Of a stretch of 39,559 bases of DNA, positions 8,634 through 36,617 are shown piece after piece. This stretch comes from a virus: the IMG/VR virus record IMGVR_UViG_3300009194_000024, positions 1 to 39,559 of that record; one strand, 5' to 3'. How positions within the stretch are numbered: the stretch's first letter is position 1; each line of letters starts with the position of its first letter. A program made the position numbers and the translations under genes. Under the pieces are notes generated by a model that had not been told where the DNA came from, searched no databases, and saw nothing but the letters and a program-made list of their open reading frames with translations.

Positions 8634-11600
8634 GCGGACTGTTTGGCGGCGGGGGTGGCTCGTTTGTGAACGAGACGCCACGCATTTCGTCACTGCGCAT
8701 CCAGACCAGCGCTTACGGTGGGTGCATTCCTGTGGTGCTGGGCAAGCAACGTGTCACGGGCAACCTGCTCAACTACTGTGACCTGCAGGCCATCAGGCAT
8801 GAGCAATCACAGTCAGCGGGCGGCAAAAGCGGTGGCGAAGTCACGAGCACCAGCATTTGGTACACGTACCGCTACTCCATCCAGATCGGCATTTGTGAAG
8901 GCCCTGCCCAGGTGGGTGAGATCTGGATGCTGGTGGGCGACACCAAGCTCAAGCTGAGCGACAACAACCAATATGGCTGGGCCATCTACACGGGCGAGAC
9001 ACCCAACGACTACAGCTCTGTGCTGGCCTCGCGCCACCCAGAAATGCACGTGCGTTACGCTGGCCTGTGCAACCTCACATCGGTCGACATGGGCGAGTTC
9101 GAGGGCGACAACCCGCCCGCCTTCTCGTTCGAGGTCGAAGGCTTTTGCTTTGACGCGGGCATTGGTGGTGCAGACCCAGCCGATGCCATCAACGCCATCA
9201 TCACAGACACCCGCTGGGGCGCTTCTGCGCCTGAGTCGGTATTCCCTGTGGCGACGTCTTACGGTGACTATGCAGTGGCCATGGGCTGGGCTATTGGCCT
9301 GGAGCTGGCCGAGCAACGCCCCGCAGCTGACTGGGTGCAAGCGGTGCTTGACCAGACCAACGCTGCCCCCGTGTGGGCCGCTGACCACTTGCAGATCGTT
9401 CCCTTTGGCGACACCGCCATCAGCGCCAATGGCCGCACCTGGGAGCCGTCAGTGGCCCCGGTGTACGACCTGACCGACGACGACTTCATTGGTGATGCAG
9501 AAGGGCCTGTCCGCGTGACCCGCAAGGCCGACAGCGACACCTTCAACATCCAGCCGGTGGAGTTCCGCAACTCGGCCAACGAGTACAACATCGAGGTCAT
9601 CGAGGGCAGCGACCCTGCCAGCGTGGCCATGTTTGGCCCGAAGAAAAACAAAACCACCATCAAGGCCCACGGCCTGCGGTCTGCTGAGGCTGCAGGCCGC
9701 CTGGCAGATGTGTATGTGCGCCGGGTCATCCGCACACGCAACGGCTACAAGTTCACCCTGCCGTGGACCTTCTGCCGCCTCCTGCCCATGGACATCGTCA
9801 CGCTCACCGAGCCCGATGGCATGACGCTGCACCCCGTGCGCCTGACCAGCGTGACTGAAAGCACCAGCCTGGAGATCGAGTGCGAGGCCGAGGACTTCCC
9901 CGCTGGGGCGGGCCACGCCGCGCTGCTGCCCAGGCAGCCTGCCAGCGGCTACATCAAAGACTTCAACACCGCGCCTGGTGCAACTGCCTCGCCCGTGATC
10001 TTTGAGCCGCCCGTGGTGTTGTCTGGCCAGCCCGAAGTGTGGCTGGGCGCCTGTGGTGGCGCCAGTTGGGGTGGCGCCAATGTGTGGATCAGCCTTGACG
10101 GCATCACCTACAAGAACCTGGGCTACACCCCTGGCCGTGCTCGCATGGGTGTGCTCACCGCTGAGCTGCCCTTGGTGTCTGACCCAGACCCCGTCAGCAC
10201 CCTGGCCGTTGACCTGACACAGTCATCCAGCACGCTCACCAGCGTGACAGCGATAGAGCGTGACACATTCGCCACCCTGTCATGGGTGGGCGGCGAGCTG
10301 GTGGCCTACCAGTCAGCCGATCTGACCGGGCCCAACGCCTACGACCTGACAGGCCTGCGCCGGGGCATCTACGCCACGCCGGTGGCAGCCCATGCCATTG
10401 GCACCAAGTACATGCGTCTGGACACCGAGTCAGTTTTCAGGATGCCCTACGGCGATATCGTCGTGGCCCCTGATGGTGCCGCACATGTGCAGATCGATGG
10501 CGACGACGCCATGACCGCCATCAAATTTGACGACGACGTGGTCACCATCGACTCTGCCCGCGCCCTCATTGGCCGCACGCTCTACATCAAGCTGCAGAGC
10601 TTCAACCTCTTCGGGGGTGGTGTTGAGCCCCTGGAAGACGTGACCCCCACCCTGTACACCATGCAGGGCGCCCCCATGGGCAAGGTCATGTCGTTGGCAT
10701 TGAGCAAGCCGTGGGATGGCAAGGACTGCCACATCAAGTGGGACGCCATGGTCAACGCTGCCAGCTACACCCTCGAAGTGTGGGCGGGCAGCACCAAGCG
10801 CCGCACCGTGCCAGGCATTGGCAGCACCAGCTATGCCTACACGTGGGAGCAAAACAAGGCAGACGGGGGCCCTTACCGTTCGCTTGAGTTCCGCCTGGTG
10901 GCCATATCTCCCAACGGTGCAAGCACAGCGCCCGCCATCTTGACCGTGGCCAACGCCCAGATGCCAGCCCCCACGGGCCTGTCGGTCACAGGCAATGGCC
11001 CCGTACTGGCCGTGATGACCAACAAGCCCACCACGCCAGACTACGCAGGCACACGCATCTGGATCAGCGACACCACAGGCTTTGATCCGCTGACCACAGC
11101 CCCTGTGCAAGACGGTACCGACTGGTTCTTGGAAAGCGTGTCGCAGGCCCCCGGCCAGTACTACGTGCGCGTAGCCCACTACGATGCCTTCGGTGTTGAC
11201 TCGCTAAACATCAGCAGCGAAGTGGCCGTTACCTACGTTGGCGCCATCGGCGGCATCCCGCAAGTGGCCGATGCGTCCACGCTGACCACCCTGGCCAGCC
11301 CGGCGCACTGGGCGGTGTATGACTTGACCACCAAAAAGATCTGGCGCTGGAACGCCACGTCCGAGGCTTACACCAAAGCCGCTGACGGTGGCGACCTGGT
11401 GGCCGCATCGGTGGCTGCCGACAAGTTGGCCGTGGCGCAACTGTCAGCCATCACCGCTGACATAGGCGACGTGACCGCTGGCACCGTTCATTCGCCCGAC
11501 AACGCTGTCGAGCTGGACTTGCTCAACAAGCGCCTGCGGGTGCGCGATGCCATGGGTGTCGAGCGCTTCCGTGCGGGCTTGCTGCCAGATGGCAGCTACG

Positions 11601-12163
11601 GCGCCATGGCCCGCAGTGCTGATGGGAGCAAGACGGCGGTGTTAACGCCAGATGTGGGCACGATAATTTCGCAGGGCCTTGAGATCATGCCGACCACGCT
11701 GACGGCTGATGGTAATTACGAGTTGGAGGTGCTACTCGATCAGGAGTATGACTTCGATGACTTGTTTGTGATAGTTGATGCCGCCGGTATCACGCCACCA
11801 CGCGTGTTGACAAATTGGCATTCGCTGACGGTTTCAGGTTTCACGGTGACTGCCTTTAACACCTACATGCACCCAAGCGCCACCTACAAGGAGGAGGATG
11901 GTTTTGCAGCCAATGGCAGGCCCAAGTACAAGACACACACCGTCAGCAATATCACGCGTGACTACAACAGTGTGTCCGCCTCGCAAGTCATTGCAAGTTG
12001 GTACAAGGGCAGCGCCACCAGTGGCGACCGGATCTACCTGTCGGCATACACCGCCCTCAATGTCTACGACCGAAACACCGAAACGATCAAGAACCTGATC
12101 GAGTTGAGTTGGCCACTGAAGGTCAAGTGGACTGTGTTCTGTAAAAACTTTATGCCTGCTTGA
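8630..12163 (+). CDS. tail tip / host specificity protein, gpJ-like
   Basis: 1177 residues. I chose the ATG at 8630 (MSGLFGGGGGSFVNETPRISSLRIQTSAYGGCIPVVLGKQRV...), preceded by AAGGG and overlapping the peptidase stop by ATGA. The conserved N-terminal part forms the tail hub (NLLNYCDL, YRYSIQIGICEGPAQVGEIWMLVGDT). The middle (about 330-470) is the phage-tail_3-type domain with TFNIQPVEFRNSANEYNIEV. Fibronectin-III-like repeats seem to follow at roughly 720-920. The last ~170 residues, from about 11640, differ in composition and codon use from the rest, as expected for the receptor-facing, host-range end exchanged between phages. A terminator follows. Confidence 0.9.
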   Translation: MSGLFGGGGGSFVNETPRISSLRIQTSAYGGCIPVVLGKQRVTGNLLNYCDLQAIRHEQSQSAGGKSGGEVTSTSIWYTYRYSIQIGICEGPAQVGEIWMLVGDTKLKLSDNNQYGWAIYTGETPNDYSSVLASRHPEMHVRYAGLCNLTSVDMGEFEGDNPPAFSFEVEGFCFDAGIGGADPADAINAIITDTRWGASAPESVFPVATSYGDYAVAMGWAIGLELAEQRPAADWVQAVLDQTNAAPVWAADHLQIVPFGDTAISANGRTWEPSVAPVYDLTDDDFIGDAEGPVRVTRKADSDTFNIQPVEFRNSANEYNIEVIEGSDPASVAMFGPKKNKTTIKAHGLRSAEAAGRLADVYVRRVIRTRNGYKFTLPWTFCRLLPMDIVTLTEPDGMTLHPVRLTSVTESTSLEIECEAEDFPAGAGHAALLPRQPASGYIKDFNTAPGATASPVIFEPPVVLSGQPEVWLGACGGASWGGANVWISLDGITYKNLGYTPGRARMGVLTAELPLVSDPDPVSTLAVDLTQSSSTLTSVTAIERDTFATLSWVGGELVAYQSADLTGPNAYDLTGLRRGIYATPVAAHAIGTKYMRLDTESVFRMPYGDIVVAPDGAAHVQIDGDDAMTAIKFDDDVVTIDSARALIGRTLYIKLQSFNLFGGGVEPLEDVTPTLYTMQGAPMGKVMSLALSKPWDGKDCHIKWDAMVNAASYTLEVWAGSTKRRTVPGIGSTSYAYTWEQNKADGGPYRSLEFRLVAISPNGASTAPAILTVANAQMPAPTGLSVTGNGPVLAVMTNKPTTPDYAGTRIWISDTTGFDPLTTAPVQDGTDWFLESVSQAPGQYYVRVAHYDAFGVDSLNISSEVAVTYVGAIGGIPQVADASTLTTLASPAHWAVYDLTTKKIWRWNATSEAYTKAADGGDLVAASVAADKLAVAQLSAITADIGDVTAGTVHSPDNAVELDLLNKRLRVRDAMGVERFRAGLLPDGSYGAMARSADGSKTAVLTPDVGTIISQGLEIMPTTLTADGNYELEVLLDQEYDFDDLFVIVDAAGITPPRVLTNWHSLTVSGFTVTAFNTYMHPSATYKEEDGFAANGRPKYKTHTVSNITRDYNSVSASQVIASWYKGSATSGDRIYLSAYTALNVYDRNTETIKNLIELSWPLKVKWTVFCKNFMPA

Positions 12164-12661: not shown

Positions 12662-14242
12662 ATGAGTACATATTTCCATCAAATGATGGGGGTGCTGTCT
12701 AGTGGCAAGGCATGGGACTACACCAACTCCAGCAACTACTACTTCGCCACAAACCGCTTTGTCACGCCCTTTAATAGCCCTGCTGCTGTGGGTGCGAATG
12801 TGTGTCAGTGCCCTAGTGTGTATATGGGCGTGGCTGATTTCCCGTCGCATTCATTTCGGTTCGCCTTAGCTTCGCACTACTCTGTTAACAGTGGCGCCTA
12901 CCCGACAGAGTTTGCAGCAACGCACACCATCACGGTGGAGGGCGTATCTGTAGGGTATGGCCCGACAAATGACCCGACGCTGGCTACTTGGGTAGCTGGG
13001 ACAATCGGCGGTTCTGCTGGAGTGGTGCTTGACCCGACGACAAACAGTGTAGGTGTCTTGACCGATGACATCATCAGCGCAGGCTCGCCTATTCCTGCGG
13101 GCTACCATCGATGGTTTAGAGTAGCCTACGCACTGCCATCAGGCGCGTCTCTTGCCGCAAATCTCAGCTTCTTTGGAACGACGCTTGAGGGCGTGGCACT
13201 CGGGTCGACAAGCCAAGCAGCAAAGCTGACCAACGGTGCTGCGATCACATCTACCGGCTCTACACCGACAAGTGCCTGGGGACCTTGCTATGCAGTGTGC
13301 AAGGGCCACGCTGGCAAGCCTGTGTTTTTGGTGTGGGGTAACTCGATTGGCGCAGGTCAGAACGAAACCTCTTACGCCAACTTCGGTGCGTCCACCCCTG
13401 GTTTCTTGATGCGTGGACTGGATGACACCAGCGGCCCAGGACGGTTCTTTGGTGCGAACTTCTGTGTCCCAGGCAGCCGACCAAGTGACTACACGACCAA
13501 CGGTCGCACAGCGGTTGCCAAGAAGTTCGATATCTTGGAGTTGTGCCCCAACGTTCCATTCACGCACATATTGAGTGAGCATGGCACCAATGCCAACGGG
13601 ACGGGCTGGGCTGGCTCTACAACGGGAGCGACACTCATTGCGTCCATGAAAAACTACTGCGACATGATTTCCGCAGAGTTTGGTGGCGTGCCCGTGGCGC
13701 AGACGACAATCCTACAAAAGATCGGCGCAACGACAGATGGCTACACGACAGTTAGCGGTCAAACCCCATCGAACGGCTTTAAAGCAGTTGGCAGCGATAC
13801 GGACGCAAATGAACGCTGGATGCGGTTCAATGCAAAGTTGGTCCTGGATCGCTGCGACGGCAAGTTTCACTCGTTCATCAACACGGCTGCCATCTTCGGT
13901 GACGCGACACAGGCCGACCGGATGGCTGACGTGCCATGGCAGACGACGCTGGCCGCACAGTACACATCTGGCGACACGATCTCTGTGGTGGACGCGCCGC
14001 CAAGTGTTCACTACGGCCTGACCGTAGGCGCTGACAGCCAACGCTCCCGCACGATCCGCTCGATCACAGGAACCGGGCCTTACAGCGTGCGGTTTACTGT
14101 GGCACCGACAACGCCTGGCTCCCCATTGGCTATCGGCACGGTCGTCAAAGCGGTGTCATCGACAGATGGCCTACACCCAGCTGGCAATAGGCACATCGAC
14201 ATGGCTGCGGCAGTGATCGCATGGAAGGCGTCTGCGTTCTGA
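12662..14242 (+). CDS. tail-associated SGNH/GDSL-type hydrolase
   Basis: 526 residues. The C-terminal half carries the set of SGNH-hydrolase blocks: VFLVWGNSIGAG with the nucleophile Ser in GNS (about 228), a Gly in SDY/GSR context, HGTN for block III (about 307-310), and DGLHP with the catalytic Asp/His pair (about 502 and 505). The N-terminal ~200 residues look like a beta-rich tail-binding part. Such enzymes on phage tails remove acyl groups from capsule or O-antigen sugars, so a deacetylase or esterase acting on host surface glycan is the likely role; the substrate is not predictable from sequence. No signal peptide is seen, as expected for a virion protein. Base composition is lower in GC than the head genes, suggesting recent exchange. 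Confidence 0.75.
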   Translation: MSTYFHQMMGVLSSGKAWDYTNSSNYYFATNRFVTPFNSPAAVGANVCQCPSVYMGVADFPSHSFRFALASHYSVNSGAYPTEFAATHTITVEGVSVGYGPTNDPTLATWVAGTIGGSAGVVLDPTTNSVGVLTDDIISAGSPIPAGYHRWFRVAYALPSGASLAANLSFFGTTLEGVALGSTSQAAKLTNGAAITSTGSTPTSAWGPCYAVCKGHAGKPVFLVWGNSIGAGQNETSYANFGASTPGFLMRGLDDTSGPGRFFGANFCVPGSRPSDYTTNGRTAVAKKFDILELCPNVPFTHILSEHGTNANGTGWAGSTTGATLIASMKNYCDMISAEFGGVPVAQTTILQKIGATTDGYTTVSGQTPSNGFKAVGSDTDANERWMRFNAKLVLDRCDGKFHSFINTAAIFGDATQADRMADVPWQTTLAAQYTSGDTISVVDAPPSVHYGLTVGADSQRSRTIRSITGTGPYSVRFTVAPTTPGSPLAIGTVVKAVSSTDGLHPAGNRHIDMAAAVIAWKASAF

Positions 14243-16723: not shown

Positions 16724-16763
16724 GGCGACCACGGGTGATGCGCTAACACCAACCGTGGCCACC
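16724..16763 (+). promoter_or_regulatory. structured leader upstream of the methylase gene
   Basis: CCACGG (16729-16734) pairs with CCGTGG (16753-16758) and GGTG (16734-16737) can pair with CACC (16747-16750), with further outer G-C pairs. No T run follows. It lies about 85 bases before the methylase start, in a 132-base gap that holds no convincing gene. It may be a regulatory RNA element. Confidence 0.4.
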
Positions 16764-16847
16764 AGAACACAGAACGCGCCTGTGAACCAGCCAAGGCCCT
16801 GCTACCTCCGGAGGCGGGGCAAGTGTAACAACTGCCTGGAGATCACA

Positions 16848-17635
16848 ATGGCAAACCCCATCATTCCCTGGGTCGGCGGCAAAAGACGCCTGGCCGACCA
16901 GCTCATCGAGCGATTCCCTCCACACAAGTGCTATGTCGAGCTTTTTGCAGGCGGCGCGGCCTTGTATTTCCTACGTCCACCTGCAGAAGTTGAAGTCATC
17001 AACGACATCAACGGCGAGCTGGTGAACCTGTATCGGGTGGTGCAACGCCACCTTGAAGAGTTTGTGCGCCAGTTCAAGTGGGCGCTGTCCAGCCGAGAGG
17101 TGTTCAAGTGGCTGCAAGACACCCCGCCTGACACCATGACCGACATCCAGCGTGCGGCCAGGTTCTTCTACCTGCAGCACCAGTGCTTCGGTGGCAAAGT
17201 CCAGGGCCAGACGTGGGGCACCGCCACCACGGCGCCGGCGGTGAACCTGCTGCGCATTGAAGAGCAGCTCAGCGCGGCACACCTGCGCTTGTCGGGCACC
17301 TACATTGAGCGGCGCCACTGGCTCAAGTGCATGGAGGTCTACGACCGCCCGCACACGTTCTTCTATCTGGACCCGCCCTACTGGGAGACCGAGGGCTACG
17401 GCGTGGAGTTTCCCTTCAGCGAATACGAAGCCATGGCCACGGCCATGCGCAAGCTGCAGGGTAGGCCATGCTGTCGATCAACGACCACCCGGCCATCCGG
17501 GAGTGCTTCCAGGGCTTTCACATGGAAAGCCTCGACATCACCTACACCGTGGGTGGTGGCGCCAAGGGAGCCGACCGGCGCGAGCTGGTGATCTGGTCGT
17601 GGGACCAGGAGGCTGAGCCTGCTGGATTGTTTTGA
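16848..17635 (+). pseudogene. dam: DNA adenine methylase (D12 class), frameshifted near its end
   Basis: Transfers a methyl group from S-adenosylmethionine to N6 of adenine, typically in GATC. From the ATG at 16848 (GGAG upstream): PWVGGKRRLADQLI and VELFAGGAALYF form the SAM-binding region, and YLDPPYWETEGYG the DPPY catalytic motif (residues 175-178). After KLQG at about 17461 the frame is lost: the expected GGTAAGGCCATG reads GGTAGGCCATG, one A short. The correct C-terminus continues from ATG 17468 (MLSINDHPAIRECFQGF...SLDITYTVGGG...RRELVIWSW) to a stop at 17635. With the base restored the protein is about 262 residues, a normal length. As read, a wrong-frame tail ends at 17591. Sequencing error or real inactivation cannot be told apart here. 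Confidence 0.8.
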
Positions 17636-17869: not shown

Positions 17870-17902
17870 CGGTCTAGCGACTCCACTCGCTAGGCCGTTT
17901 TT
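17870..17902 (+). terminator. terminator downstream of attP core
   Basis: Eleven base pairs (17870-17880 with 17887-17897, one G-T), loop CTCCAC, then TTTTT. In an integrated prophage it would lie just after the rebuilt tRNA CCA end and could terminate the tRNA transcript. It overlaps the integrase stop codon on the other strand. Confidence 0.8.
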
Positions 17903-19071
17903 CTTTGCTGGGGGACTTTTGGGGGACTGGCCTCCAGTAGCGCCACCTGTTGCTCCAACTTCAACGTGGCCAGCGACCGATTCCACTGGCCCGAGTCCTT
18001 CTTGATCTTCTCCAACGCACTGTGCAGCTCCACGACCTGGGCCACGCTGTAGTGCTGGGTCATCGACTTGGTGCTGTGCCACAGGATGTCCGAGATGGTT
18101 GCCTCAGACACGCCAGCTTCACGCAGCCTCATCCCCACCGTGTGGCGCAAGTCATGCACGTGCAGGTCACCCAGGCCTGCAGCCTGGCGGGCATTGCACC
18201 AGGCGGTGTTGTTCATGGCCTCGATAGGCCGGTAGGCCATCTTGGGCGCCTGGTCGGTGTTTTTGACACGTTCCCGGCGATAAACAAACACAAACTCAGG
18301 GTGCTGGCCACGCACCGACTCCACGACCGATTGCGCCACGCTGTTGCAGATCACCACCTTCGACCGCTTGCGGCCCTTCACGTGCTGCCTGGGCACCTCG
18401 AAGACCGAGATGCCCAGCTCGGGCACCTTGATCTCCCACTCCCACTTCAGGTTGCACACCACGTCGTCACGCACGCCCGTGTTCAAGACGAACAGGGCCA
18501 TGCGCGCCAGGTGGTCTGGCAGCTTGGGTAGAAGCGTGTGTTGCTGTGACCAGGTGATGGGCCTGGGCTCGCGCTGGTGGCCAACGAGGGGGAGCAGTGT
18601 GATCTTCGGTGCCTGGTCCAGCCAAGTGCGCCCATTCTCGTCCCGCCAGCTCGTGGCCGCGAGGTTGAGGATGCGACGAACCACGGCCAAGGCCAGGTTG
18701 ATCGTCTTGTGTGCCCTCCCATCCTGCAGCCGGGCGTTGACGAATGGCGCCAAAGTGCCATCGTGTACTTGCGCCAGCTCCAGGTGATGGATGAAAGGCA
18801 TCACTGACTGCAGCATGTAGATCTCGGTCTTGATGGATGCCTTGTCGGCATGCAGTTGCACGTAGTGGGCTGCAGCCTGGTCGAACGTGCGGCTCTCTTG
18901 CACACCGTGCAGCACCGTAGCTCGATGAGCCGCGAGCTGCTCGATCAGCCAGCGCTGCGCCTCTTCAAAACTGACGAAGCCGCGCTGGCGAAATCGAGTG
19001 CCGAACTGCCACTTGTCGACTTGCCATTGCCCATTCTTGTCGGGGTAGACCCCGCTTGTTTTGTGGCCCAT
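17890..19071 (-). CDS. int: tyrosine recombinase / phage integrase
   Basis: 393 residues. Catalyses site-specific recombination between attP and the host tRNA-Arg locus. The N-terminal arm-binding domain has GVYPDKNGQWQVDKWQFGTRFRQRGF; a core-binding domain spans about 60-160. Catalytic residues: Arg201 (NTGVRDDVV), His306/Arg309 (HDLRHTVGMRL), His332 (LWHSTKSM) and Tyr341 (QHYSVA). The ATG at 19071 has AAAGGAG seven bases before it. It is the last gene of the leftward operon and its stop lies 41 bases from the attP core, the usual arrangement. The start overlaps the 3' end of the excisionase-like gene by about 127 bases. Confidence 0.95.
   Translation of the reverse strand: MGHKTSGVYPDKNGQWQVDKWQFGTRFRQRGFVSFEEAQRWLIEQLAAHRATVLHGVQESRTFDQAAAHYVQLHADKASIKTEIYMLQSVMPFIHHLELAQVHDGTLAPFVNARLQDGRAHKTINLALAVVRRILNLAATSWRDENGRTWLDQAPKITLLPLVGHQREPRPITWSQQHTLLPKLPDHLARMALFVLNTGVRDDVVCNLKWEWEIKVPELGISVFEVPRQHVKGRKRSKVVICNSVAQSVVESVRGQHPEFVFVYRRERVKNTDQAPKMAYRPIEAMNNTAWCNARQAAGLGDLHVHDLRHTVGMRLREAGVSEATISDILWHSTKSMTQHYSVAQVVELHSALEKIKKDSGQWNRSLATLKLEQQVALLEASPPKVPQQRKTA
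17909..17936. repeat. attP right arm repeat (probable integrase arm site)
   Basis: Second copy of the GGGGGAC-TTTT-GGGGGACTGGCC repeat, inside the 3' end of the integrase gene. Same direction as the copy at 17692-17719. Confidence 0.65.
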
Positions 19072-19368: not shown

Positions 19369-19728
19369 TCAAAACGGTAGGTCTTTATGGCCGGTAGCAA
19401 AGCGTTGTTGCAAGCGAATCTTTAGCACCTGACGCCTCCATGCGCGGCGCTGTGCTTGCGTGTTTCGTATGGCCTTGCTCACCCACCTGATGCGGCTCGC
19501 CCAAATTGCTGACAACCACCGACCTTGGACTTTTTCCCGAGGCCCCTCTTCGTGGCATGTCATGTGCCTTGGCCCCAGTCTCGGGCCAATGGTCACGCGT
19601 TTGTCGAATGTGCATGGCATGGCTTTCTTGCTTGGGTAGCGTCTCACCCTCACTCTCGTCAAAGGCTGCGCCAGATCATCGTCGTCCTGGGTTTCGCTGG
19701 CCAGAGGCATTTCAAAGATGGCTGACAT
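19369..19728 (-). CDS. hypothetical basic protein between RT and excisionase
   Basis: 119 residues from the ATG at 19728, preceded by CAGGAG at 5 bases, overlapping the RT gene end by 17 bases. It begins with an acidic stretch (SETQDDDDLAQP), then becomes strongly basic and rich in Arg and Trp (RVRVRRYPSKKAMP..., GRWLSAIWASRIRWVSKAIRNTQAQRRAWRRQVLKIRLQQRF). I do not recognise a family. The basic, helical second half suggests nucleic-acid binding. Being coupled to the RT gene it could serve the DGR, or it could simply be an early phage gene. Confidence 0.6.
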   Translation of the reverse strand: MSAIFEMPLASETQDDDDLAQPLTRVRVRRYPSKKAMPCTFDKRVTIGPRLGPRHMTCHEEGPREKVQGRWLSAIWASRIRWVSKAIRNTQAQRRAWRRQVLKIRLQQRFATGHKDLPF

Positions 19729-21100
19729 GGTCACTCCTGATTCGGTAACACTTGCTCAAGTCAGCCTTGACACAATGCCCGCGCAGGCGCAGCACGTTGG
19801 CAATGCGGGCTTGCTCGGCATGGCCCTTTGATGCCTGGCGCACAAGGCCCAGGTAACTGTTACCGACCTCGAACAGATCGTCGGCAGGTGTCTCATGCAG
19901 ACGTCTGTACGCATTGCGCAGTGTTCTTGGCCGGGTTGTTCTGCACCAGGGCTTGATAACTTGCCCGACGAAGTCGATGCCGCGGTCGACGGGCTGCAAG
20001 ATGGTTTTGCTGGGGTTGAGCCCCAAGCTCAAGCGCTCTGGCAAGAAGTCAGTCACGTCGCGCAGCACATGGTTCAGCCACTGGCTGCTTTCATGCACCA
20101 GCACGAAGTCATCGACATACCGAACGTAGTGCGGCGCCTTCAGTGTGTGCTTGACACGCTTGTCGAGCACGTCCAGCAGCACGTTGGCAAAGAACTGCGA
20201 CGACAGGTTGCCAATGGGCAGCCCGTGGTCATCGGGCGCATTGAAGAGGCTCTTGTGTGGCGGCACCAGGCGCAACAGTTGCGCGTTGCCCCTCACCTCC
20301 ACGTCGCCCCGTGGGTCGTGCATCAGCACCGTGTGGGCCAGCCTGAGCCACCAGGGCTCGGTGATGCGCCTGGCCAGCAATTCGAACACCACATGCTTGT
20401 TGATTGAAACGAAGAAGTTGGCCAGGTCGCACTTCAGGTAGTGCGCTGGCTTGCTCCAGTTGTGTGTCACGCTTCGCACCTGGTGCTCTAGGCGCTTGGC
20501 TGCGTACAGCGTGCCCCTGCCGGGGATGCACGCACAGCTATCAGCCGTGAATGCGTTGTGAAATCGCTCCATCACCTGGTTGTAGAGCAGGCGATGGACG
20601 ATGCGGTCGCGTATGTCTGCGGCCCACACCTCACGTGGTTTGGGTCGGGTGATCACGAAGCAGATGGATCTGCCTGGTTGATACTCTCCGCTGATCAATT
20701 CATCGTGTAGGTCGCACAGGTTGCGCTCGGCCTTGGCCTCAAACACGGATGCGCTTTTGCTGCTGCGCTTTGATCTGAGGCAGTCTATGTAGGCTGCCAC
20801 CAGCTTATCGAACAGGTCAGGATCTGCGGACAACTCGGGCGCGCAGCTCAGAACTCTTGTTGTTGTTGTTCTGGTTGCCGTTGTTGAAGTTCTGATACCA
20901 CGCGTTGTTGGACGAGTACTGCGATTGTTCGCGCTATCTACGTCACCATGGCGAGGGCTTCCGCCGATCACTGTGGCGACTGCACCAGACCAGCCAGGTG
21001 CTTGCCCTGCGGTATCTGCGGTGTGCATGGCGGTGCCCTTGTGAGGCAGCGGCGCGACCAGATTCAATATGGGCACGGGCATGAGAGCCTTGACTGTCAT
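19712..21100 (-). CDS. DGR reverse transcriptase
   Basis: 462 residues from the ATG at 21100. Copies template-repeat RNA into adenine-mutagenised cDNA for transfer into the variable repeats. RT motifs: YLKCDLANFFVSINK (first catalytic Asp, about 225), GLPIGNLSSQ (about 293-302, the DGR-type version of motif 4, where retroviruses have QGSP), and YVRYVDDFVL with the YVDD active site (about 328-331), then GLNPSKTILQPVDRGIDFVGQ. The ATG overlaps the avd stop (ATGA) and has AGGAGG eight bases before it, so it is the best-supported start. This adds ~100 residues that run through the template repeat in a frame different from the target genes. An unmarked start after the repeat (e.g. GTG 20800) would give a 362-residue protein nearer the usual size. 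Confidence 0.9.
   Translation of the reverse strand: MTVKALMPVPILNLVAPLPHKGTAMHTADTAGQAPGWSGAVATVIGGSPRHGDVDSANNRSTRPTTRGIRTSTTATRTTTTRVLSCAPELSADPDLFDKLVAAYIDCLRSKRSSKSASVFEAKAERNLCDLHDELISGEYQPGRSICFVITRPKPREVWAADIRDRIVHRLLYNQVMERFHNAFTADSCACIPGRGTLYAAKRLEHQVRSVTHNWSKPAHYLKCDLANFFVSINKHVVFELLARRITEPWWLRLAHTVLMHDPRGDVEVRGNAQLLRLVPPHKSLFNAPDDHGLPIGNLSSQFFANVLLDVLDKRVKHTLKAPHYVRYVDDFVLVHESSQWLNHVLRDVTDFLPERLSLGLNPSKTILQPVDRGIDFVGQVIKPWCRTTRPRTLRNAYRRLHETPADDLFEVGNSYLGLVRQASKGHAEQARIANVLRLRGHCVKADLSKCYRIRSDHVSHL
20825..20923 (-). repeat. DGR template repeat (TR)
   Basis: 99 bp aligned without gaps to both variable repeats. Read on the minus strand in the target frame it encodes SQYSSNNAWYQNFNNGNQ, then four Asn and KSSELRARVVR. 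Ten AAC codons make up the variable positions, the codon best suited to adenine mutagenesis because no substitution at its first two bases gives a stop. The first 31 bases on the plus strand (GC-rich, invariant) are the initiation-of-mutagenic-homing-like end. The match with VR1 extends to 20822. Confidence 0.95.
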
Positions 21101-21462
21101 GCTACAGGCCTCCTGTCGGCTGATTTTTTGAGCCATCCACCGCCTTGCTTGCCAATGCTGTCGAGCAACTGGATCGATGCAGACCACACCTTCGGCGAGA
21201 TGTGCCTGCTGTCATGCGAAGCCCTGAAAAGCACCGTGAGTGTTCTTTGGTGCTTGAGCAGTGCATTGATGTTGCTCACTCGCTCGTTGCCCTTGGTGGC
21301 GTTGGCCAGGGCCATGAGGTCGAGCATTTCAACGCAGTGATGACTGATCTTGTCGCCCATGTGACGCTTGACGCCGCGCGGCATTTGCTCTTGCGCCTTG
21401 ATGGCCAACGAAAGCAACTGCACGCCTGTGCGGTGTATTGGTAGATCGGAGTGGATGGCCAT
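21097..21462 (-). CDS. avd: DGR accessory variability determinant (Avd-like)
   Basis: 121 residues from the ATG at 21462. Avd forms a positively charged four-helix-bundle pentamer that binds the RT and template RNA and is needed for retrohoming in well-studied DGRs. The opening SDLPIHRTGVQLLSLAIKAQEQMPRGVKRHMGDKISHHCVEMLDLMALANATKG has the family pattern (PI-x-K/R-x-x-x-LL, PR-x-x-KR-x-x-G-x-K/R-I, CVE-x-L). Four helices are predictable and the protein is basic. It sits between the VR1 gene and the template repeat, the same place as in the Bordetella phage BPP-1 cassette. No clear ribosome-binding site; translation may be coupled to the target gene upstream. Confidence 0.85.
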   Translation of the reverse strand: MAIHSDLPIHRTGVQLLSLAIKAQEQMPRGVKRHMGDKISHHCVEMLDLMALANATKGNERVSNINALLKHQRTLTVLFRASHDSRHISPKVWSASIQLLDSIGKQGGGWLKKSADRRPVA

Positions 21463-21480
21463 GATCAAAGGATCAAAGGA

Positions 21481-21936
21481 TTAAGCGGGCAATCTGCGGA
21501 CAACTCGGGCGCGCAGCTCAGAACTCTTGTTGACGCGGTTCTGGTAGCCGTAGTAGAAGTCCTGATACCACGCGTTGAGGGACGAGTACTGCGTGTTGGA
21601 CCAGTAGGCTTCACCCTTGAACAGGTGCTTGGCGTACTTGAACAAGATGGCTTGCTCCACTCGGTCTGGCAAATCGCCGCCCTGCTCTTTTGCCCAGCGC
21701 ATCTGGGTGTCCCAGTCGGCCTCGTCGTTGTCGCCGTCGAGTACGGTCAGGTGGTACTTGGTCTTGCCGTCATCGGCAACGAGTGTCGCAATCCACGTCT
21801 CGCCGGGCAGCAGCTCGGGGGCTGTCAGCTCGACTGGGAAGATGTTAGGCAGTGTTGGCTTGGATTCGTAGGCGGCGATCAGGTCATTGACCTGCTGTTG
21901 CGCGGCCTTGATTTGCTCAAGAGTCACTTGTTGCAT
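21481..21936 (-). CDS. DGR target protein 1 (DUF1566/C-type-lectin-like)
   Basis: 151 residues from the ATG at 21936 (GGAG seven bases before). The C-terminal ~45 residues come from variable repeat 1: AYWSNTQYSSLNAWYQDFYYGYQNRVNKSSELRARVVRRLPA. The YWSSTQ...A...F...GYQ...RARVVR pattern is the conserved core of DUF1566-like, formylglycine/C-type-lectin-type folds used as DGR targets. The N-terminal part is a helix (LEQIKAAQQQVNDLIAAYESKP) and a compact beta domain (ETWIATLVADDGKTKYHLTVLDGD). It has no signal peptide or membrane segment. Variable residues are surface-exposed in this fold and would make a ligand-binding face. The natural ligand is unknown. Confidence 0.85.
   Translation of the reverse strand: MQQVTLEQIKAAQQQVNDLIAAYESKPTLPNIFPVELTAPELLPGETWIATLVADDGKTKYHLTVLDGDNDEADWDTQMRWAKEQGGDLPDRVEQAILFKYAKHLFKGEAYWSNTQYSSLNAWYQDFYYGYQNRVNKSSELRARVVRRLPA
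21495..21593 (-). repeat. DGR variable repeat 1 (VR1)
   Basis: Aligns without gaps to the template repeat with 10 substitutions, all at template adenines on the coding strand: two in the first AAC codon, one each in four further AAC codons, two each in two of the last AAC codons. Non-adenine positions are all identical. Confidence 0.95.
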
Positions 21937-21967
21937 GTGCTTGCTCCGTGATTAAAGGATTGAAGGA

Positions 21968-22573
21968 TCAATCGATCAGTTGAATCGTGCGGACAACTCG
22001 GGCGCGCAGCTCAGAACTCTTGTCGTCGTCGCTCTGGTAGCCGTGGCTGAAGTACTGAAACCACGCGTTGAGGGACGAGTACTGCGTGCTGGACCAGTAC
22101 AGCGCCTCCTCAAAGGCCTGCGGCCCACCCTCCTGGAAGTCTTGTGCAGACGTCTGCACCACCGGGTTGTGGGCATACGGGTAGCCTGGTGGCTCGCTGC
22201 TGGGGTTGTCACCATCGCGGAAGTACCCACCAGTCTGGTAGGTTGTAGGTTTGAGGTGGCGGTATGCCAGCTCAAGCACATCGCGCGCGGGGATAGCCCA
22301 GTCGCTGAACCCGGCAATGCGCAAGCCAGTGGCCCATTGGGCAAGCGGGCTGCCATCCTCTGCCATGGCCACGGTGTTGGCCAGGCTGTCGTTGTAGCTG
22401 GTGGCGCTGATGATGTCGGTGAACTTGGGGTGCCATACCATCTCGGTTTCGCCCGCGTCTTTCGGTGCCCAGATGGCGGCGCAGAGGATCTGGTTAACTC
22501 GCACCAGGCCACCGAAGTGGCCACCTTCGGCCTCGATGAATGCGCCGAGCGCTGGGAGGTTGTCTTTCTTCAT
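21968..22573 (-). CDS. DGR target protein 2 (DUF1566/C-type-lectin-like)
   Basis: 201 residues from the ATG at 22573 (AAAGGAG upstream). The C-terminus holds variable repeat 2: LYWSSTQYSSLNAWFQYFSHGYQSDDDKSSELRARVVRTIQ. The preceding ~150 residues (GGHFGGLVRVNQILCAAIWAPKDAGE, WATGLRIAGFSDWAIPARDVLELAYRHLKP) form a full DUF1566-type domain, with FSDWAIPARDVLEL matching the family's W-x-L/I-P-x-R-x-E-L motif. No signal peptide. It is the first DGR gene in the operon, and both target genes end with the same kind of repeat and share a 22-bp 3' flank, so they probably arose by duplication around the repeat. Confidence 0.85.
   Translation of the reverse strand: MKKDNLPALGAFIEAEGGHFGGLVRVNQILCAAIWAPKDAGETEMVWHPKFTDIISATSYNDSLANTVAMAEDGSPLAQWATGLRIAGFSDWAIPARDVLELAYRHLKPTTYQTGGYFRDGDNPSSEPPGYPYAHNPVVQTSAQDFQEGGPQAFEEALYWSSTQYSSLNAWFQYFSHGYQSDDDKSSELRARVVRTIQLID
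21988..22086 (-). repeat. DGR variable repeat 2 (VR2)
   Basis: Aligns without gaps to the template repeat with 11 substitutions, all at template adenines: nine AAC codons are affected across the variable block except where unchanged, plus one TAT to TTT. No change falls at a non-adenine position. Confidence 0.95.
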
Positions 22574-23119: not shown

Positions 23120-23561
23120 GGCACACCTCCATTTCGTCTGTTGCTGCCACCATCTGCACGTGTGAAAGCGCGTTTATCTGCTTCTCTGACCACTCAGCGG
23201 CCTCGATGGCGGTGACCTGGTCAACACGCTTGGCCAACTCGTCCATCACTGCCGCGCCATCTGCAGCCAGTGCGTAGTCCAGTGGCGTGGGCCACTCCAC
23301 GCGGCCAGTTGCGCGCCAGTGGGCCACCACGCGGTCGAACAGCTTGCTCTGCACCAGCATCTCGACCATGCCCATCTGGAGGGCGTTGGCCACGTATGAC
23401 CAGGTGAAGATGCCACCACCGATTTGCCACAGGGTTTCCACGTCGCCCTGGCCAGAGTGCAGGGCATCTACGTTCTGCCAGTGGGCAAGGCCCAGGTCGC
23501 GCACTTGGTCGGGCTTGAGCTTTGGCCGCAGCCAGCGCGGCACTTTGTGGCGCGCCTTCAT
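23112..23561 (-). CDS. hypothetical early protein
   Basis: 149 residues; starts in ATGA overlap with the ParB-like gene and ends overlapping the next gene by 8 bases. Begins KARHKVPRWLRPKLKPDQVRDLGLAHWQNVDALHSGQGD and continues in helical segments (TLWQIGGGIFTWSYVANALQMGMVEMLVQSKLFDRVVAHW, YALAADGAAVMDELAKRVDQVTAIEAAEW). Family not recognised; similar helical proteins are common next to ParB-like genes in beta-proteobacterial prophages. Tight coupling suggests a shared expression programme rather than a known joint function. Confidence 0.65.
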   Translation of the reverse strand: MKARHKVPRWLRPKLKPDQVRDLGLAHWQNVDALHSGQGDVETLWQIGGGIFTWSYVANALQMGMVEMLVQSKLFDRVVAHWRATGRVEWPTPLDYALAADGAAVMDELAKRVDQVTAIEAAEWSEKQINALSHVQMVAATDEMEVCHG

Positions 23562-25336
23562 TCGTTGCCCTCCCCGTCGTCATCGCCCAGGTCGTCTTCG
23601 TCGCGGCTGGCACCAGAGGTGCCATCGTTGACCACTTCTTGAGCACAAGGCAGCGAAAGCACGTCGACGCCGTAGCGCTTGGCCAGGGCGAGGCGCTCGT
23701 CCAACTCAGCTTGCTCTTCGGCAGGGGTAGTTGGAAGTCCGCTCAGTGCCAGGCAGACGATGAACGTTGATACTTGGTCGGGGCCAAGTTCCTTCAACCG
23801 GCTCATCACTTGCTCGTCCTGGTCGTCGACATCGATGAGGTCCTTCCAGCCCATCACCTCCAGCGTGTCATGGTCAAGTTCGAAGCTGTATTCGGTCACC
23901 ATGTGATCTGCGATGAGCAGCAAGTCTTCTCGTGTTCGCTCAGTGCCAGCCACACGGGACATGATTGCTTTAGTCACGGGCCAAAACTTGGTCCTAACCA
24001 CCTCTTGCTCGGGCGTCAACGATTCAATCCACGCCCTTTGCTCGGCCTGCCTCGCTTGCCATGCGTCATGAGCCTTCCGGTTCGCCTCCTCCCGCGCTTG
24101 CGCAGCAGGGTTAGGGGGGGATTGCTCTTTTTTGCCTTCGTCCAGGCGATCACACAGCTCTGCGTAGGCGTCTTCAATGGTGCCGATATCGTCCGAGGTG
24201 TATGCATCCACTGCCACGCCGGTTTTGGGGTGCAGCAGGATCGTCGGCTGCACCACCAGTTGCCCGTCATCCTTGAGCGCTTGCACTGCTTGACCCCATG
24301 TGAATGTCTGACCGACTGTGTAGCCATCAGGATGCCGGTGCCACATTGGGTCTGTGGCCGCTGTGTATCCGTGAGGTGCTCGAAGGTGGGTGGGCCACTT
24401 CTTGTCGTCCAGGTCATCCTTCACTGCCTGACCTGACTTCTTGGCCTCCTCCACTACCTGCAAGCCGTGGATGCGAGTCTTCATGTCGAAGCACTTGCTA
24501 TTGGTGCAGATGTCTGGATCAAGCAGGCCGCGCAGCGCCTCGTCGTTCTGGCTCAAGCTGGGGCAACTGGTGCATGCGGGCTTGTCTCCGTAGGTGTCCA
24601 AGTGGATGGTGAACGTGGCCCGCTCAATGGGTACCATCATGTCCTTGATGGCCGCTTTCGCATCGCGCACTGACAGCCAGCCGTGGCCGTCATGTTCCCG
24701 CACCTCGTCTAGTGCGTCGGCTTGCATCGGGGCTGGCAGCGTGGCAATGAGGATGGCGATGTCGGCACCGAGCCCTTCGTTGGCCACAGCATCTTGCACC
24801 TGCCGGTTCAGCTTCAACAGGCGCAGCCGGTTGTAGACCCAGCTTCGGCTTTTGCCCAGCTGCTGGGGCAGGTCTTCGGCCCGCACGCCTGGCTCATTCA
24901 GTAGCGATTGCAGGCCGTGAGCTTCGTCAATCGCGTTGGTGTTCTCGCGCTGGATGTTCTCAGCGAACTGGGCACGCTTGACCTGGGCGTCGTCCATCTC
25001 GACCAAGATGGCCGGTATGCGCTCAAGGCCCGCCAGTTGCGCGGCAGCCAGGCGCCGGTGGCCGAACACCAGCTCGTAGCGAATGAAGGCATCGGCCTGG
25101 CCATACTCAGGGCCAGGGCGCACGCGCACGGGCTGCAGCATGCCGTCCTTCTTCAAGCTCTCGGCCAGGTCGAGCAGGTTGGTCTCGGCGATATCGCCGC
25201 TGCGGTAGTTGAACGGGCTGGGCGCAATGGCCTCGACGGGGATGTAGGTGATCTGTTCAGGCATGGTGGGCTGGTGATGGGTGGGCTCAGTGGTGGCCAC
25301 GGCTGCGGCCTGGGTGGGTTTGTTGCGCTTGCTCAC
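23558..25336 (-). CDS. ParB/RepB-like DNA-binding protein
   Basis: 592 residues from a GTG start overlapping the previous stop. Residues ~28-135 form a ParB N-terminal (ParB/Srx) domain: YIPVEAIAPSPFNYR, the GHRRLAAAQLAG box (92-95) and ENIQREN (127-133), the CTP-binding and clamp-closing motifs of true ParB proteins. A helix-turn-helix follows (DLPQQLGKSRSWVYNRLRLLKL, about 155-176). Four Cys (255, 258, 277, 282; CxxC...CxxxxC) suggest a zinc site. The long acidic C-terminal part is uncharacterised. There is no ParA next to it, so it is probably a phage regulator or genome-organising protein, not a plasmid partition system. A parS-like target is not known. Confidence 0.85.
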   Translation of the reverse strand: MSKRNKPTQAAAVATTEPTHHQPTMPEQITYIPVEAIAPSPFNYRSGDIAETNLLDLAESLKKDGMLQPVRVRPGPEYGQADAFIRYELVFGHRRLAAAQLAGLERIPAILVEMDDAQVKRAQFAENIQRENTNAIDEAHGLQSLLNEPGVRAEDLPQQLGKSRSWVYNRLRLLKLNRQVQDAVANEGLGADIAILIATLPAPMQADALDEVREHDGHGWLSVRDAKAAIKDMMVPIERATFTIHLDTYGDKPACTSCPSLSQNDEALRGLLDPDICTNSKCFDMKTRIHGLQVVEEAKKSGQAVKDDLDDKKWPTHLRAPHGYTAATDPMWHRHPDGYTVGQTFTWGQAVQALKDDGQLVVQPTILLHPKTGVAVDAYTSDDIGTIEDAYAELCDRLDEGKKEQSPPNPAAQAREEANRKAHDAWQARQAEQRAWIESLTPEQEVVRTKFWPVTKAIMSRVAGTERTREDLLLIADHMVTEYSFELDHDTLEVMGWKDLIDVDDQDEQVMSRLKELGPDQVSTFIVCLALSGLPTTPAEEQAELDERLALAKRYGVDVLSLPCAQEVVNDGTSGASRDEDDLGDDDGEGNE

Positions 25337-33822: not shown

Positions 33823-34410
33823 ATGGCTTTAATGGGTTATCGGGAATATGCCCGGCATCGGGGCTGCACGCTCGGCGCTGTGCAGAAGGCCATCGAGGCC
33901 GGTCGCATCACTGTGGTTGTGGACGACCGTGGCGCCAAAAAGATCGACTCAGAGCAAGCCGACAAGGCCTGGGATCAAAACACCGACCTAGCCAAGCAAT
34001 CGCTGCTGCACGCGCCTGACAGCGCTGCCGCTGGCCAGACGTCTGAACAGTCTGGCGAGCCAGACGAAGACGCGCCGCTGCCTGGCGACTCTGACCGATA
34101 CAAGACCGCTCGGGCTGAGCGCGAAGAGATCCGGCGAGACAGTGAGCGCCTGGAGCTGCAGCTCAAGCAAGGCTCGCTCATCGATGTCGACGAAGCGGGG
34201 CGCATTGCTTACACCAAGTTCAGAGCGCTGCGAGACAGCCTACTCAATGTGCCTGCCCGCGTGAAGGACCAGTGCGCGGCCATGAAAGACCCGATGGAAG
34301 TCGAGCTGCTGCTCGACCGTGAACTCTCAAGCGTGCTGGCGTCATTCGACCTGGCATCCGTTACCCGTGAGCGCGATGACGAAGACGACGACGATGCAAC
34401 CGATCAATGA
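33823..34410 (+). CDS. terS: terminase small subunit (Nu1-like)
   Basis: 195 residues. Recognises the packaging site on phage DNA and brings in the large subunit. N-terminal winged-helix part MGYREYARHRGCTLGAVQKAIEAGRITVVVDDRGAKKIDSEQADKAW is typical of Nu1-type small subunits. An acidic linker follows, then a coiled coil (YKTARAEREEIRRDSERLELQLKQGSLIDVDEAGRIAYTKFRALRDSLLNVPARVKDQCAAM) for oligomerisation and large-subunit contact. Its end overlaps terL by ATGA. A GC-rich repeat region that may be cos lies just upstream. Confidence 0.9.
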   Translation: MALMGYREYARHRGCTLGAVQKAIEAGRITVVVDDRGAKKIDSEQADKAWDQNTDLAKQSLLHAPDSAAAGQTSEQSGEPDEDAPLPGDSDRYKTARAEREEIRRDSERLELQLKQGSLIDVDEAGRIAYTKFRALRDSLLNVPARVKDQCAAMKDPMEVELLLDRELSSVLASFDLASVTRERDDEDDDDATDQ

Positions 34411-36617
34411 AGACCCCTGCTCAAAGATTCGAGAGCGCCATTCAACGGGCGCTGCGACCAGACTCGCAAGTCTGGATCGATGAGTGGGCAGAGGACAACC
34501 GTGTTCTGCCGCCTGACTCACCCGAGCCGGGCGATTGGCGCAATGATCGTGCGCCTTACCTGATCGACATCATGCGGACGATGTCGCCCTCCTCGCCTTG
34601 GCGAGAAGGGTGGGTGATGAAAGGTGTGCAAGTCGGCGGCTCATCTGCAGGTGAGAACTTTCTCGGCGGGTCAATCTGTAGTGCGGCTGGCAACATCCTG
34701 GTGGTGTTTCCCACGCTGGACGATGCGAAGCAGTGGGAGCTGAACAGGTTCACGCCGATGCGTGACTCCACGCGGGCGCTGCGCCTGCGTATCCGCGATG
34801 CGCGTGTGCGTGGGGCAGACAACACCAAGCTGCGCAAGAAGTACCCAGGCGGCACGATGCGGCTGGTCGGTGCCAACCGCATGGGCGGTGCCAAGTCGAC
34901 CACGTATCGCTACATCAAGTTCGAGGAGCCCGACGACTACCCCCGAGCCCTGGCGGGCCAGGGTAACCTGATCCAGAACTTCCGCAACCGTGCGGGGAAC
35001 TTTGGTCGCAAGGCCAAGATCTGGGGCGACGGCACGCCCACGGTCGATGGCCAGTCAGCCGTGCAAGACGGCTACAACAAGGGCGACAAGCGCGAGTGGC
35101 GCCTGTGGTGCCCTGGCGGTTGTGGCGAGGCGCAGCCGCTGTCGTGGAGTGGCTTTGTGTTGCCCGAGGGCGACCCAGCCGATGTGCGCTACCAGTGCCG
35201 GGGCTGCAACAAGCCATTCAGCGAAGAGGAGTGGAAGACCCACAACTACAAGCCACGCCCCAAGGGCTGCACCGAAGAGCAGGCCCGAGACCTGGGCCTG
35301 GCCCACTGGGTGGCCACCGCAGTAGGTGAGCCATACGTGGCGAGCTGGAAGCTGCCTTCGTTTGTGGCGCCCCTTGGCTGGCGCCCTTGGCCGGTTCTGG
35401 TGGTTGAGTGGCGCGAGGCGCAAAAGGACGAAGAGAAGCTCAAGTCCTTTATCAACAACCAGATGGCCGAGTGCTGGAAGGACGACGTCAGGAGTGAGGT
35501 GGGAGCCGATGCGCTGCAAAAGCGTGCCGAGAACTACCCGCTCATGTACTGCCCGAAGGGCGCGCTGATTGTGGTGGCTGGCGTTGACACGCAAGACAAC
35601 CGGCTGGCCATTGTGATCCGGGCCTTTGGTCGTGACGAAGAATCGTGGGGCCTGTGGCACGGCGAGATCTACGGCGACCCCTCATTGCCTGACGTGTGGA
35701 ACAAGCTGCGAGAGCTGCTGACCGCACCCATCAGACACGAATCGGGGCAGGTGCTCTACGTCGACGCGGCAGCCATTGACGCTGGCGGTCACCACTCGGA
35801 AGACGTGTACGCCTTCTGCCGTGATGCCAAGCTGCGAGGCAAGCACTGGTTTGCCATCCGTGGTGCCAAGGCTTATGACGCGCCCAAGCTGGGCAGGCCG
35901 AAGACCATTGAGTTCACCTGGCGCGGCAAGGCGGTGCCTGGTGGTGTGGTGCTGCGTTTCTTGGGCACGCAAGCCATCAAGAACCTGATCGATGGTCGGC
36001 TGCGCCTTGAGAAGACTGGCGGGGGGTATTACCACTTCCCGCTCGGCTTTCAGCGTGACTACTTCGAGCAGCTGCGGTCTGAAAGCCGCGTGCGCAAGAA
36101 GGACAAGCAAGGAAACAAGGCGCTGTGGTGGGAAAAGGGCTCAAAGCGCAACGAGGCATGGGACTGCGAGGTGTACCTGTACGCTGCGCTGCTCTATGTC
36201 ATGCACGGTCGCCACGCGGAAACGGTCTGGCGCAACCGTGAGCGCGTCTTCGAAACCGTTGTGCAGTTGGACCTGCTGACCAGCGTGCAAGCGCCGGTGG
36301 AGCCTGCGACACAAGCCCAGGCCGAAGCCGAACAGGCAGACCAGGGAAACGTCACCCAGGTGGTGGTCGATGGCGACACGGGCGAGATCATCAGCGGCGC
36401 ACCTGCCGCTGATGCACCGCAGGCGTCACAGCAAGTCTTCGAGGCGCTTGGCTGGCCGGTGACCACTGAGACAGCACCCGTGGAAGACCAGTCGCAGGGC
36501 GGTGCGCAGATGTACCCGCCACTGCCCGAGCCTCCGGTGATACCGCCCCGCAAACCAAAGCCACCCAAGCCGCCACGTCCAAAGCGTGGCGGCTTTGTAA
36601 ACGGGTGGCGCAAGTAA
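34407..36617 (+). CDS. terL: terminase large subunit (lambda gpA family)
   Basis: 736 residues. ATP-driven DNA-packaging motor and nuclease. GpA-family pattern: WADDNR-like DEWAEDNRVLPPDSPEPGDWRNDRAPYLIDIMRTMS at the N-terminus, the P-loop-like region GVQVGGSSAGENFLGG (about 72-88), FPTLDDAKQWELNRFTPM, and the nuclease domain beginning with VVAGVDTQDNRLA (Asp394), followed by WGLWHGEIYGDPSLPDVWNKL and a zinc-like CxG-C / CRGC pair (about 232-270). The last ~120 residues are low-complexity and end in a Pro/Lys-rich stretch. A gpA-type terminase implies cos packaging of cohesive-ended DNA. Confidence 0.95.
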   Translation: MKTPAQRFESAIQRALRPDSQVWIDEWAEDNRVLPPDSPEPGDWRNDRAPYLIDIMRTMSPSSPWREGWVMKGVQVGGSSAGENFLGGSICSAAGNILVVFPTLDDAKQWELNRFTPMRDSTRALRLRIRDARVRGADNTKLRKKYPGGTMRLVGANRMGGAKSTTYRYIKFEEPDDYPRALAGQGNLIQNFRNRAGNFGRKAKIWGDGTPTVDGQSAVQDGYNKGDKREWRLWCPGGCGEAQPLSWSGFVLPEGDPADVRYQCRGCNKPFSEEEWKTHNYKPRPKGCTEEQARDLGLAHWVATAVGEPYVASWKLPSFVAPLGWRPWPVLVVEWREAQKDEEKLKSFINNQMAECWKDDVRSEVGADALQKRAENYPLMYCPKGALIVVAGVDTQDNRLAIVIRAFGRDEESWGLWHGEIYGDPSLPDVWNKLRELLTAPIRHESGQVLYVDAAAIDAGGHHSEDVYAFCRDAKLRGKHWFAIRGAKAYDAPKLGRPKTIEFTWRGKAVPGGVVLRFLGTQAIKNLIDGRLRLEKTGGGYYHFPLGFQRDYFEQLRSESRVRKKDKQGNKALWWEKGSKRNEAWDCEVYLYAALLYVMHGRHAETVWRNRERVFETVVQLDLLTSVQAPVEPATQAQAEAEQADQGNVTQVVVDGDTGEIISGAPAADAPQASQQVFEALGWPVTTETAPVEDQSQGGAQMYPPLPEPPVIPPRKPKPPKPPRPKRGGFVNGWRK

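Follow-up and report, generated by a model that had tools for sequence, protein, structure and literature searches.

A phage diversity-generating retroelement with the RT-15 RNA 5' of its template repeat and a putative long-range helix to the template 3' end

What process has rewritten the copies of a 99-bp repeat in this phage, and how would a template that directly abuts the reverse transcriptase (RT) gene be copied? The window, the entire 39,559-nt stretch of viral DNA that we analysed, carries three copies on the minus strand: a template repeat (TR, 20825..20923), which contains 31 adenines, and two variable repeats, VR1 (21495..21593) and VR2 (21988..22086), with 10 and 11 differences from TR, respectively. 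The preliminary description had placed all 21 differences at TR adenines, and a recount over the 99 ungapped bases bore this out: there is no non-adenine difference, and substitutions to all three other bases are present, as had been stated (A to T, 9; A to G, 8; A to C, 4). If the changed sites were random, the chance that all of them fall at A would be 2.9e-6 for VR1 and 6.7e-7 for VR2. The changes are confined to codon positions 1 and 2 (7 and 3 sites in VR1, 7 and 4 in VR2); TR read in the target frame is QYSSNNAWYQNFNNGNQNNNNKSSELRARVVR, and 17 of its 31 adenines are unaltered in VR1 and VR2 alike. The homology between VR1 and TR extends 3 bases past the repeat, to 21492, and TR itself lies outside the interval to which the original observation was assigned (21495-22086). 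A search with TR found no fourth copy in the virus record that contains the window.

Seven sites are altered in both VRs, with the same new base at four of them (20909, 20908, 20876 and 20864). Thus, the VRs do share the CTC codon pointed out previously, but this is not their sole shared change; by simple arithmetic, at least 4 identical new bases among 7 are expected by chance in about 17% of cases. The further claim that the two VRs were rewritten independently is compatible with these data, although, given the four shared identical substitutions, it falls short of proof.

Judged by its sequence, the cassette is a diversity-generating retroelement (DGR) of a temperate phage, with an RT, the accessory variability determinant Avd, a TR and two VR-bearing target genes. 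In the DGR of Bordetella phage BPP-1, RT-Avd makes cDNA from the TR RNA, inserting random bases opposite adenines, and this cDNA replaces the VR. In the direction of transcription, the order in the window is VR2 target, VR1 target, avd, the structured RNA RT-15, TR and RT, all on the minus strand. The RT reading frame (19712..21100), which adjoins the repeats and in which the RT domain occupies about 19712-20812 and the start codon is uncertain, encodes an RT of the group-II-intron-like superfamily: it matches Pfam RVT_1 (E 2e-15) and the PHROG reverse transcriptase family (E 5e-107), shares 29% identity with BPP-1 brt across 80% of the query, and also matches PDB 8ub7 (E 5e-30). The avd gene (21097..21468, minus strand) encodes a 123-aa protein that matches the PHROG family 'Avd protein of DGR' (E 2e-17) as well as, under the curated cut-offs in both cases, Pfam bAvd (E 1e-7) and NCBIfam DivGenRetAVD (E 6e-11).

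To compare the locus with those of related phages, as the preliminary description had suggested, we used an RT search (12 viral loci) and an Avd search (31 loci; L004 and L008 are in both), plus 2 genome loci; L005 and L025 represent one contig. After removal of duplicates, 41 loci contributed 82 ungapped TR/VR pairs, gapped pairs not being counted. The adenine bias is general: 977 of the 1019 differences fall at adenines, a proportion that is biased upward because pairs with less than 60% of their differences at A were excluded, yet A makes up 31% of the TR; in 51 of the 82 pairs, all differences are at A. The pooled changes in the 41 loci are A to G (530), A to T (320) and, the rarest, A to C (127), a spectrum in which the contributions of the RT, repair and selection are not separated. 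Among the loci that show the same bias are those of the named phages Magia, Cruim01, vB_Sb_QDWS and LPPA56. Two VRs were detected in 29 loci, three in 6 and one in 6, and short contigs may hide some. In seven loci (L015, L016, L021, L027, L039, L043 and L051), third or remote VR targets are located several kilobases upstream of the cassette.

These counts leave next to no probability for the explanation that the repeats differ through ordinary duplication and point mutation, or through assembly error. The record is metagenome-derived or otherwise unverified, and repeats are prone to misassembly (the VR of one relative, L038, is at the contig edge), but all 21 differences at A, and the recurrence of this bias in 41 loci, some of them from named phages, are against it, and the pooled spectrum already refutes it, barring bases changed by re-sequencing.

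A second alternative is decay, with the VRs rewritten long ago and the cassette now defunct in this phage. The only near-identical contig of the window, L004, is 100% identical over 6284 bp, VRs included, and many relatives have no clear RT start codon beside the RT domain, both of which favour this view; however, L004 may belong to the same virus population. Furthermore, the cassette ORFs are all open, the RT retains YVDD, and the 21 changes come without any non-A drift. Relatives with identical TRs differ in the VR: between L046 and L047, there are 33 mismatches over 6742 columns, 4 of them in the 94-bp VR1, and the TR is identical. In L006 and L009, which are 93.5% identical, each VR has 14-15 differences (gaps included) and the TR 1-2. 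In such near-identical relatives, then, the TR stays constant and the VR differs; L036/L037 and L013/L050 are uninformative because the members of each pair are fully identical. On balance, we regard decay as quite improbable. Of the preliminary interpretation, mutagenic retrohoming rather than drift is upheld by the RT, Avd, TR, two VRs and the bias in relatives, but the suggestion of recent activity in this phage went beyond the data. One pair that at first looked like a clean case of VR rewriting was discarded: L038 and L039 have 21 ungapped differences in 6480 bases, 20 of them in the VR and 19 at a TR A, but the L038 VR at the contig edge resembles the other VR of L039.

The VRs are located at the 3' ends of two genes whose products have a C-type-lectin fold in predicted models. 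The VR1 target gene (21481..21936, minus strand; 151 aa) and the VR2 target gene (21968..22573, minus strand; 201 aa) match the Lcl C-terminal domain of Pfam under the curated cut-off (E 1e-7 and 2e-4), and both match PHROG 4245. For both AlphaFold2 models (pLDDT 93 and 84, respectively), the best PDB match is the Legionella Lcl C-terminal domain 8q4e (Foldseek E 5e-5 for the VR1 target and 8e-4 for the VR2 target); for the VR1 target model, many C-type lectins rank after 8q4e. The diversified residues are in the C-terminal part of the targets (120-135 and 168-184), and the two proteins most likely bind some variable ligand. No signal peptide is suggested for either, since a 12-residue hydropathy scan found no strongly hydrophobic N-terminus (maxima 1.15 and 1.63).

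Both targets are encoded in a leftward, non-structural gene block near the integrase (17890-19071), with a ParB-like gene (23558-25336) also near the cassette, and not in the tail module; the major head protein (43-1392), tape measure (4250-6616), tail genes (8465-12163), terminase (34407-36617) and portal (37266-39014) are all on the plus strand. Phage DGR targets are mostly reported as tail proteins (PMC8144416); two small lectin-like targets encoded away from the tail module are unusual among phage DGRs. Elsewhere in the window, a 526-aa protein encoded after the tail genes (12662-14242, plus strand) has no PHROG match, and a DNA methyltransferase ORF (16755-17591, plus strand) has a family match spanning only residues 30-236 of 278, with an odd C-terminal tail that may be frameshifted.

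How the template RNA is organized is less obvious. The stretch from the avd stop codon to the first bases of TR is filled by RT-15 (Rfam RF03018; 20922..21113, minus strand; 173.4 bits against a gathering threshold of 82). RT-15 lies directly 5' of TR in the window and in all 29 relatives searched; in a comparison of 13 loci with Rfam, it is present in the 5 RT-15-type phages and absent from the other 8. A search for RT-15 that was blind to the RT found 11 distinct genomes above the cut-off: 9 of 399 in the order of G001, which had originally been found through its RT, 3 of 398 in the phylum (two of them the same genomes), and 1 of 369 and 2 of 390 in the class and the order of G757, respectively, with G757 in both. 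In all 10 of these genomes that were examined, Avd is encoded 5' and a DGR RT 3' of RT-15, and the eleventh has an RT; three sub-threshold RT-15 matches that were examined have neither Avd nor a DGR RT beside them. On the other side of the TR, there is little room: RT residue 17 lies 10-13 nt beyond the TR end in the window and 9-35 nt beyond it across the 10 RT-15-type loci measured, against 187 nt in BPP-1 and 142-327 nt in 7 classic phage DGRs including BPP-1. Two other phages have arrangements of their own. In Bacillus phage BalMu-1 (L074), Rfam RT-14 (4795-4938) looks like a BPP-1-type 3' spacer RNA because it is directly 3' of the DGR TR. In Bacteroides phage F2 (L071), the TR (4848-4955) ends 43 nt before RT residue 17, and the roughly 128 nt between avd and TR have no Rfam match; F2 is possibly a second lineage with a 5' RNA.

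In the window, no stop codon interrupts the RT frame through TR and RT-15 as far upstream as an ATG (21098-21100) that shares bases with the avd stop (ATGA). An open RT frame likewise crosses the TR in all 45 loci with an RT (duplicates included). Of 51 loci, 39 keep the frame open as far as the avd stop, and the ATGA overlap is in frame in 32; in 15 of 50 loci, there is no ATG, GTG or TTG between the TR motif and the RT core (in this count, one locus gave a doubtful value of zero codons, and one further locus was unresolved). The RT frame thus likely enters the TR, as read from the ORFs. Translation through RT-15 as a long N-terminal extension was considered and is unsupported: RT-15 shows no significant periodicity by codon position (30 loci, p 0.12), and stops or frameshifts occur within the RT-15 stretch of the frame in some loci. 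The TR may be translated into the RT, but the periodicity in RT-15 lends no support to coding. The overlap of TR and RT ORF is not itself new because it was recognized as a structural class in 2012 (PMC3521204).

A mutual-information scan of RT-15, TR and the first RT codons in 51 loci (one prophage counted twice) revealed a link that spans the TR. Most of the top-scoring pairs are RT-15 helix pairs, and the pair ranking second of all is 244 columns apart (G-C in 36 loci, U-A in 8 and C-G in 4). It belongs to a 9-bp helix with the 5' strand UUGAAUCUG, which is unpaired in the Rfam model, and the 3' end CAGAUNCNN; in the window, the 5' strand (a1) is at 21059..21067 and the 3' strand (a2), at the 3' boundary of TR, is CAGAUCCUG at 20818..20826, both on the minus strand. 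In the 50-locus alignment, 87.2% of 444 cells are paired, with double compensatory changes in 7 of the 9 pairs (32 such cells), as illustrated by L019 (UUGAUUCUG with CAGCAUCGA), L062 (CAACACCUG with CAGGUGCUG) and L007 (GUGAAUCGG with CCGAUCCCG). The helix beats all shuffles on five measures (none of 500 reach it), and the significance of this and the other shuffle tests is overstated because the loci are related. Sliding the partner by 1-3 columns lowers the pairing to 15-45%. Its 7-bp core is 89.4% paired, with double changes in 5 of 7 pairs; among 52,326 ungapped 7-bp helices, 3, this one included, reach its paired fraction, and among the 18,339 that span more than 190 columns, only overlapping registers of the same helix combine 70% pairing with at least 5 double-change pairs. 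An earlier reading, from few loci, of the AAUCUG:CAGAU pairing as non-covarying was overturned by the full alignment.

Further loci were gathered with a pattern that leaves a1 free except for its last base; a2 was placed through the GTCCG motif only, and 5 loci without this motif and 6 without an RT were dropped, so that 104 of the 115 loci examined were scored, 80 of them non-redundant. In these 80 loci, a mean of 7.84 of 9 positions pair, compared to 7.12 with partners swapped (0 of 5000 shuffles reach it), and the third helix position alternates among G-C (27), C-G (23), U-A (19) and U-G (4). The fit is imperfect: the window itself forms 7 of the 9 pairs (one a G-U), and half of the loci (25 of 50) lack pair 63-352. 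The complement of a1 is not unique to TR because the 3' flanks of the VRs also pair with it in part (mean 6.45 of 9, against 7.73 for TR); TR pairs better than the VR flank in 50 of 78 comparisons, equally in 16 and worse in 12. When the window RNA was folded as a single sequence, both the Rfam structure and the long helix were missed (z -0.10), and the long helix is absent from the RNAalifold prediction. Taken together, synteny and covariation support the 5' placement of RT-15 and a predicted pairing of RT-15 with the TR 3' end across the whole TR. The TR would then be a loop pinned at both ends, because the closing helix of RT-15 (21052..21056 paired with 20930-20934, the 3' strand 20930..20934 lying a few bases before TR, minus strand) holds its 5' side and the new helix its 3' side. 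Between the two helices is a G, 21058 (minus strand), that is invariant in 50 of 50 loci.

The same data can be set against a more conventional arrangement, namely, an ordinary BPP-1-like DGR whose 3' spacer is overprinted on the first RT codons, with RT-15 serving as a separate avd/RT leader. Room for such a spacer is kept by the synonymous-codon conservation of the RT gene outside TR, which peaks immediately 3' of TR (near 20700-20800; z 8.7 and 8.9, in a gene where many other scanned segments are at about 4 and some reach 7-7.5). In addition, the avd stop codon and an in-frame ATG are both overlapped by RT-15 in 32 of 51 loci, which would fit a translation leader. However, RNAalifold predicts no consensus fold for the 5' part of the RT gene, 3' of TR, and on this ground a structured spacer inside the RT gene was rejected as a candidate; the TR end is merely 9-35 nt from the RT core in the loci measured, and the RT-15 element terminates at the edge of TR, whose 3' end it is predicted to pair with. 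We consider this arrangement improbable, if less so than decay.

We are fairly confident, then, that this is a DGR directed at two Lcl/C-type-lectin proteins, whose C-terminal ligand-binding surface it rewrites, with a template RNA that carries RT-15 on its 5' side and the tie-back helix. In the scheme that we favour, RT-Avd would dock on RT-15 and copy the TR-containing RNA with random bases opposite adenines; the new helix would bring the 3' end of TR into the active site of the RT, so that cDNA would begin there, possibly primed, as in retrons, by the 2'-OH of the invariant G 21058, or by a nicked RNA end. Synthesis would stop at the RT-15 closing helix, and the cDNA would then replace VR1 or VR2. 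Priming at a nicked RNA end or at a site in the RT-coding region is possible. A broader reading, to which we give somewhat less than even chances, is that DGR templates come in two topologies and that, in the one seen here, the 5' docking RNA is tied back and cDNA starts retron-style at the G, with the TR perhaps encoding the RT N-terminus; both ends of the mutagenised segment would then be set by the fold, because the docking RNA ties back and the cDNA starts beside the helix.

Neither the adenine signature nor targets of the Lcl type are new for a DGR. For RT-15 5' of TR and the tie-back helix, we found no account in the open-licence PubMed Central literature, and one may exist in print. If the proposal is true, the RNA known to Rfam simply as RT-15 would make up one half of a DGR template RNA whose fold is defined, and compensatory mutations would offer a direct test of how cDNA synthesis begins and ends in a DGR that lacks a 3' spacer. 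For tools of targeted mutagenesis, holding the template in a loop between two helices would moreover be a compact layout.

Compared with known systems, the window shares with the BPP-1 DGR (mtd-avd-TR-brt) the RT, Avd, a TR upstream of the RT, a VR at the 3' end of the target gene and adenine-specific differences. In BPP-1 (L067), avd is followed by TR (3681-3814), a structured 144-nt spacer that matches Rfam Phage_DGR, and brt, and the one target is in the tail module, whereas here TR abuts the RT, RT-15 is 5' of TR, and two small targets are outside the tail module. The BPP-1 spacer recruits bRT-Avd and primes cDNA (PMC12875486). The 3' flanks of the window VRs contain stems of 5 bp (VR1) and 6 bp (VR2) with 4-nt loops, 16 and 14 nt downstream, respectively; these inverted repeats are a weak echo of the BPP-1 target hairpin, and the best stems downstream of 81 VRs are only weakly longer than in shuffles (mean 4.40 versus 3.49). 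The window matches the Rfam RT-15 model end to end; that model ends at the TR start and leaves UUGAAUCUG unpaired, and the partner at the TR 3' end is added here. The order avd-TR-RT with TR abutting the RT is common to the window and Burkholderia phage Magia, Pseudomonas phages Cruim01, LPPA56 and Haboob, and Shewanella phage vB_Sb_QDWS; RT-15 is also found in this group where tested, with RTs only 56-64% identical to that of the window, and the Magia record already annotates 'possible DGR target' and 'Avd-like' genes.

The likeness to retrons is offered strictly as a works-like comparison. In retrons, the 5' and 3' segments pair to form a stem, and a conserved guanosine next to it is where cDNA starts (PMC6868368). 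The complementary 5' and 3' segments that enclose the template are common to both, and G 21058 is a candidate primer because its geometry matches that of the retron guanosine; in retrons the conserved G primes cDNA, whereas in the window such a role is only inferred. The window RT falls short of the curated cut-off for retron RTs (retron_St85, 48 bits versus 235), and its template, unlike those of retrons, would be copied to mutate a target gene. A template looped in this way would suggest that DGRs and retrons hold their templates by a similar trick.
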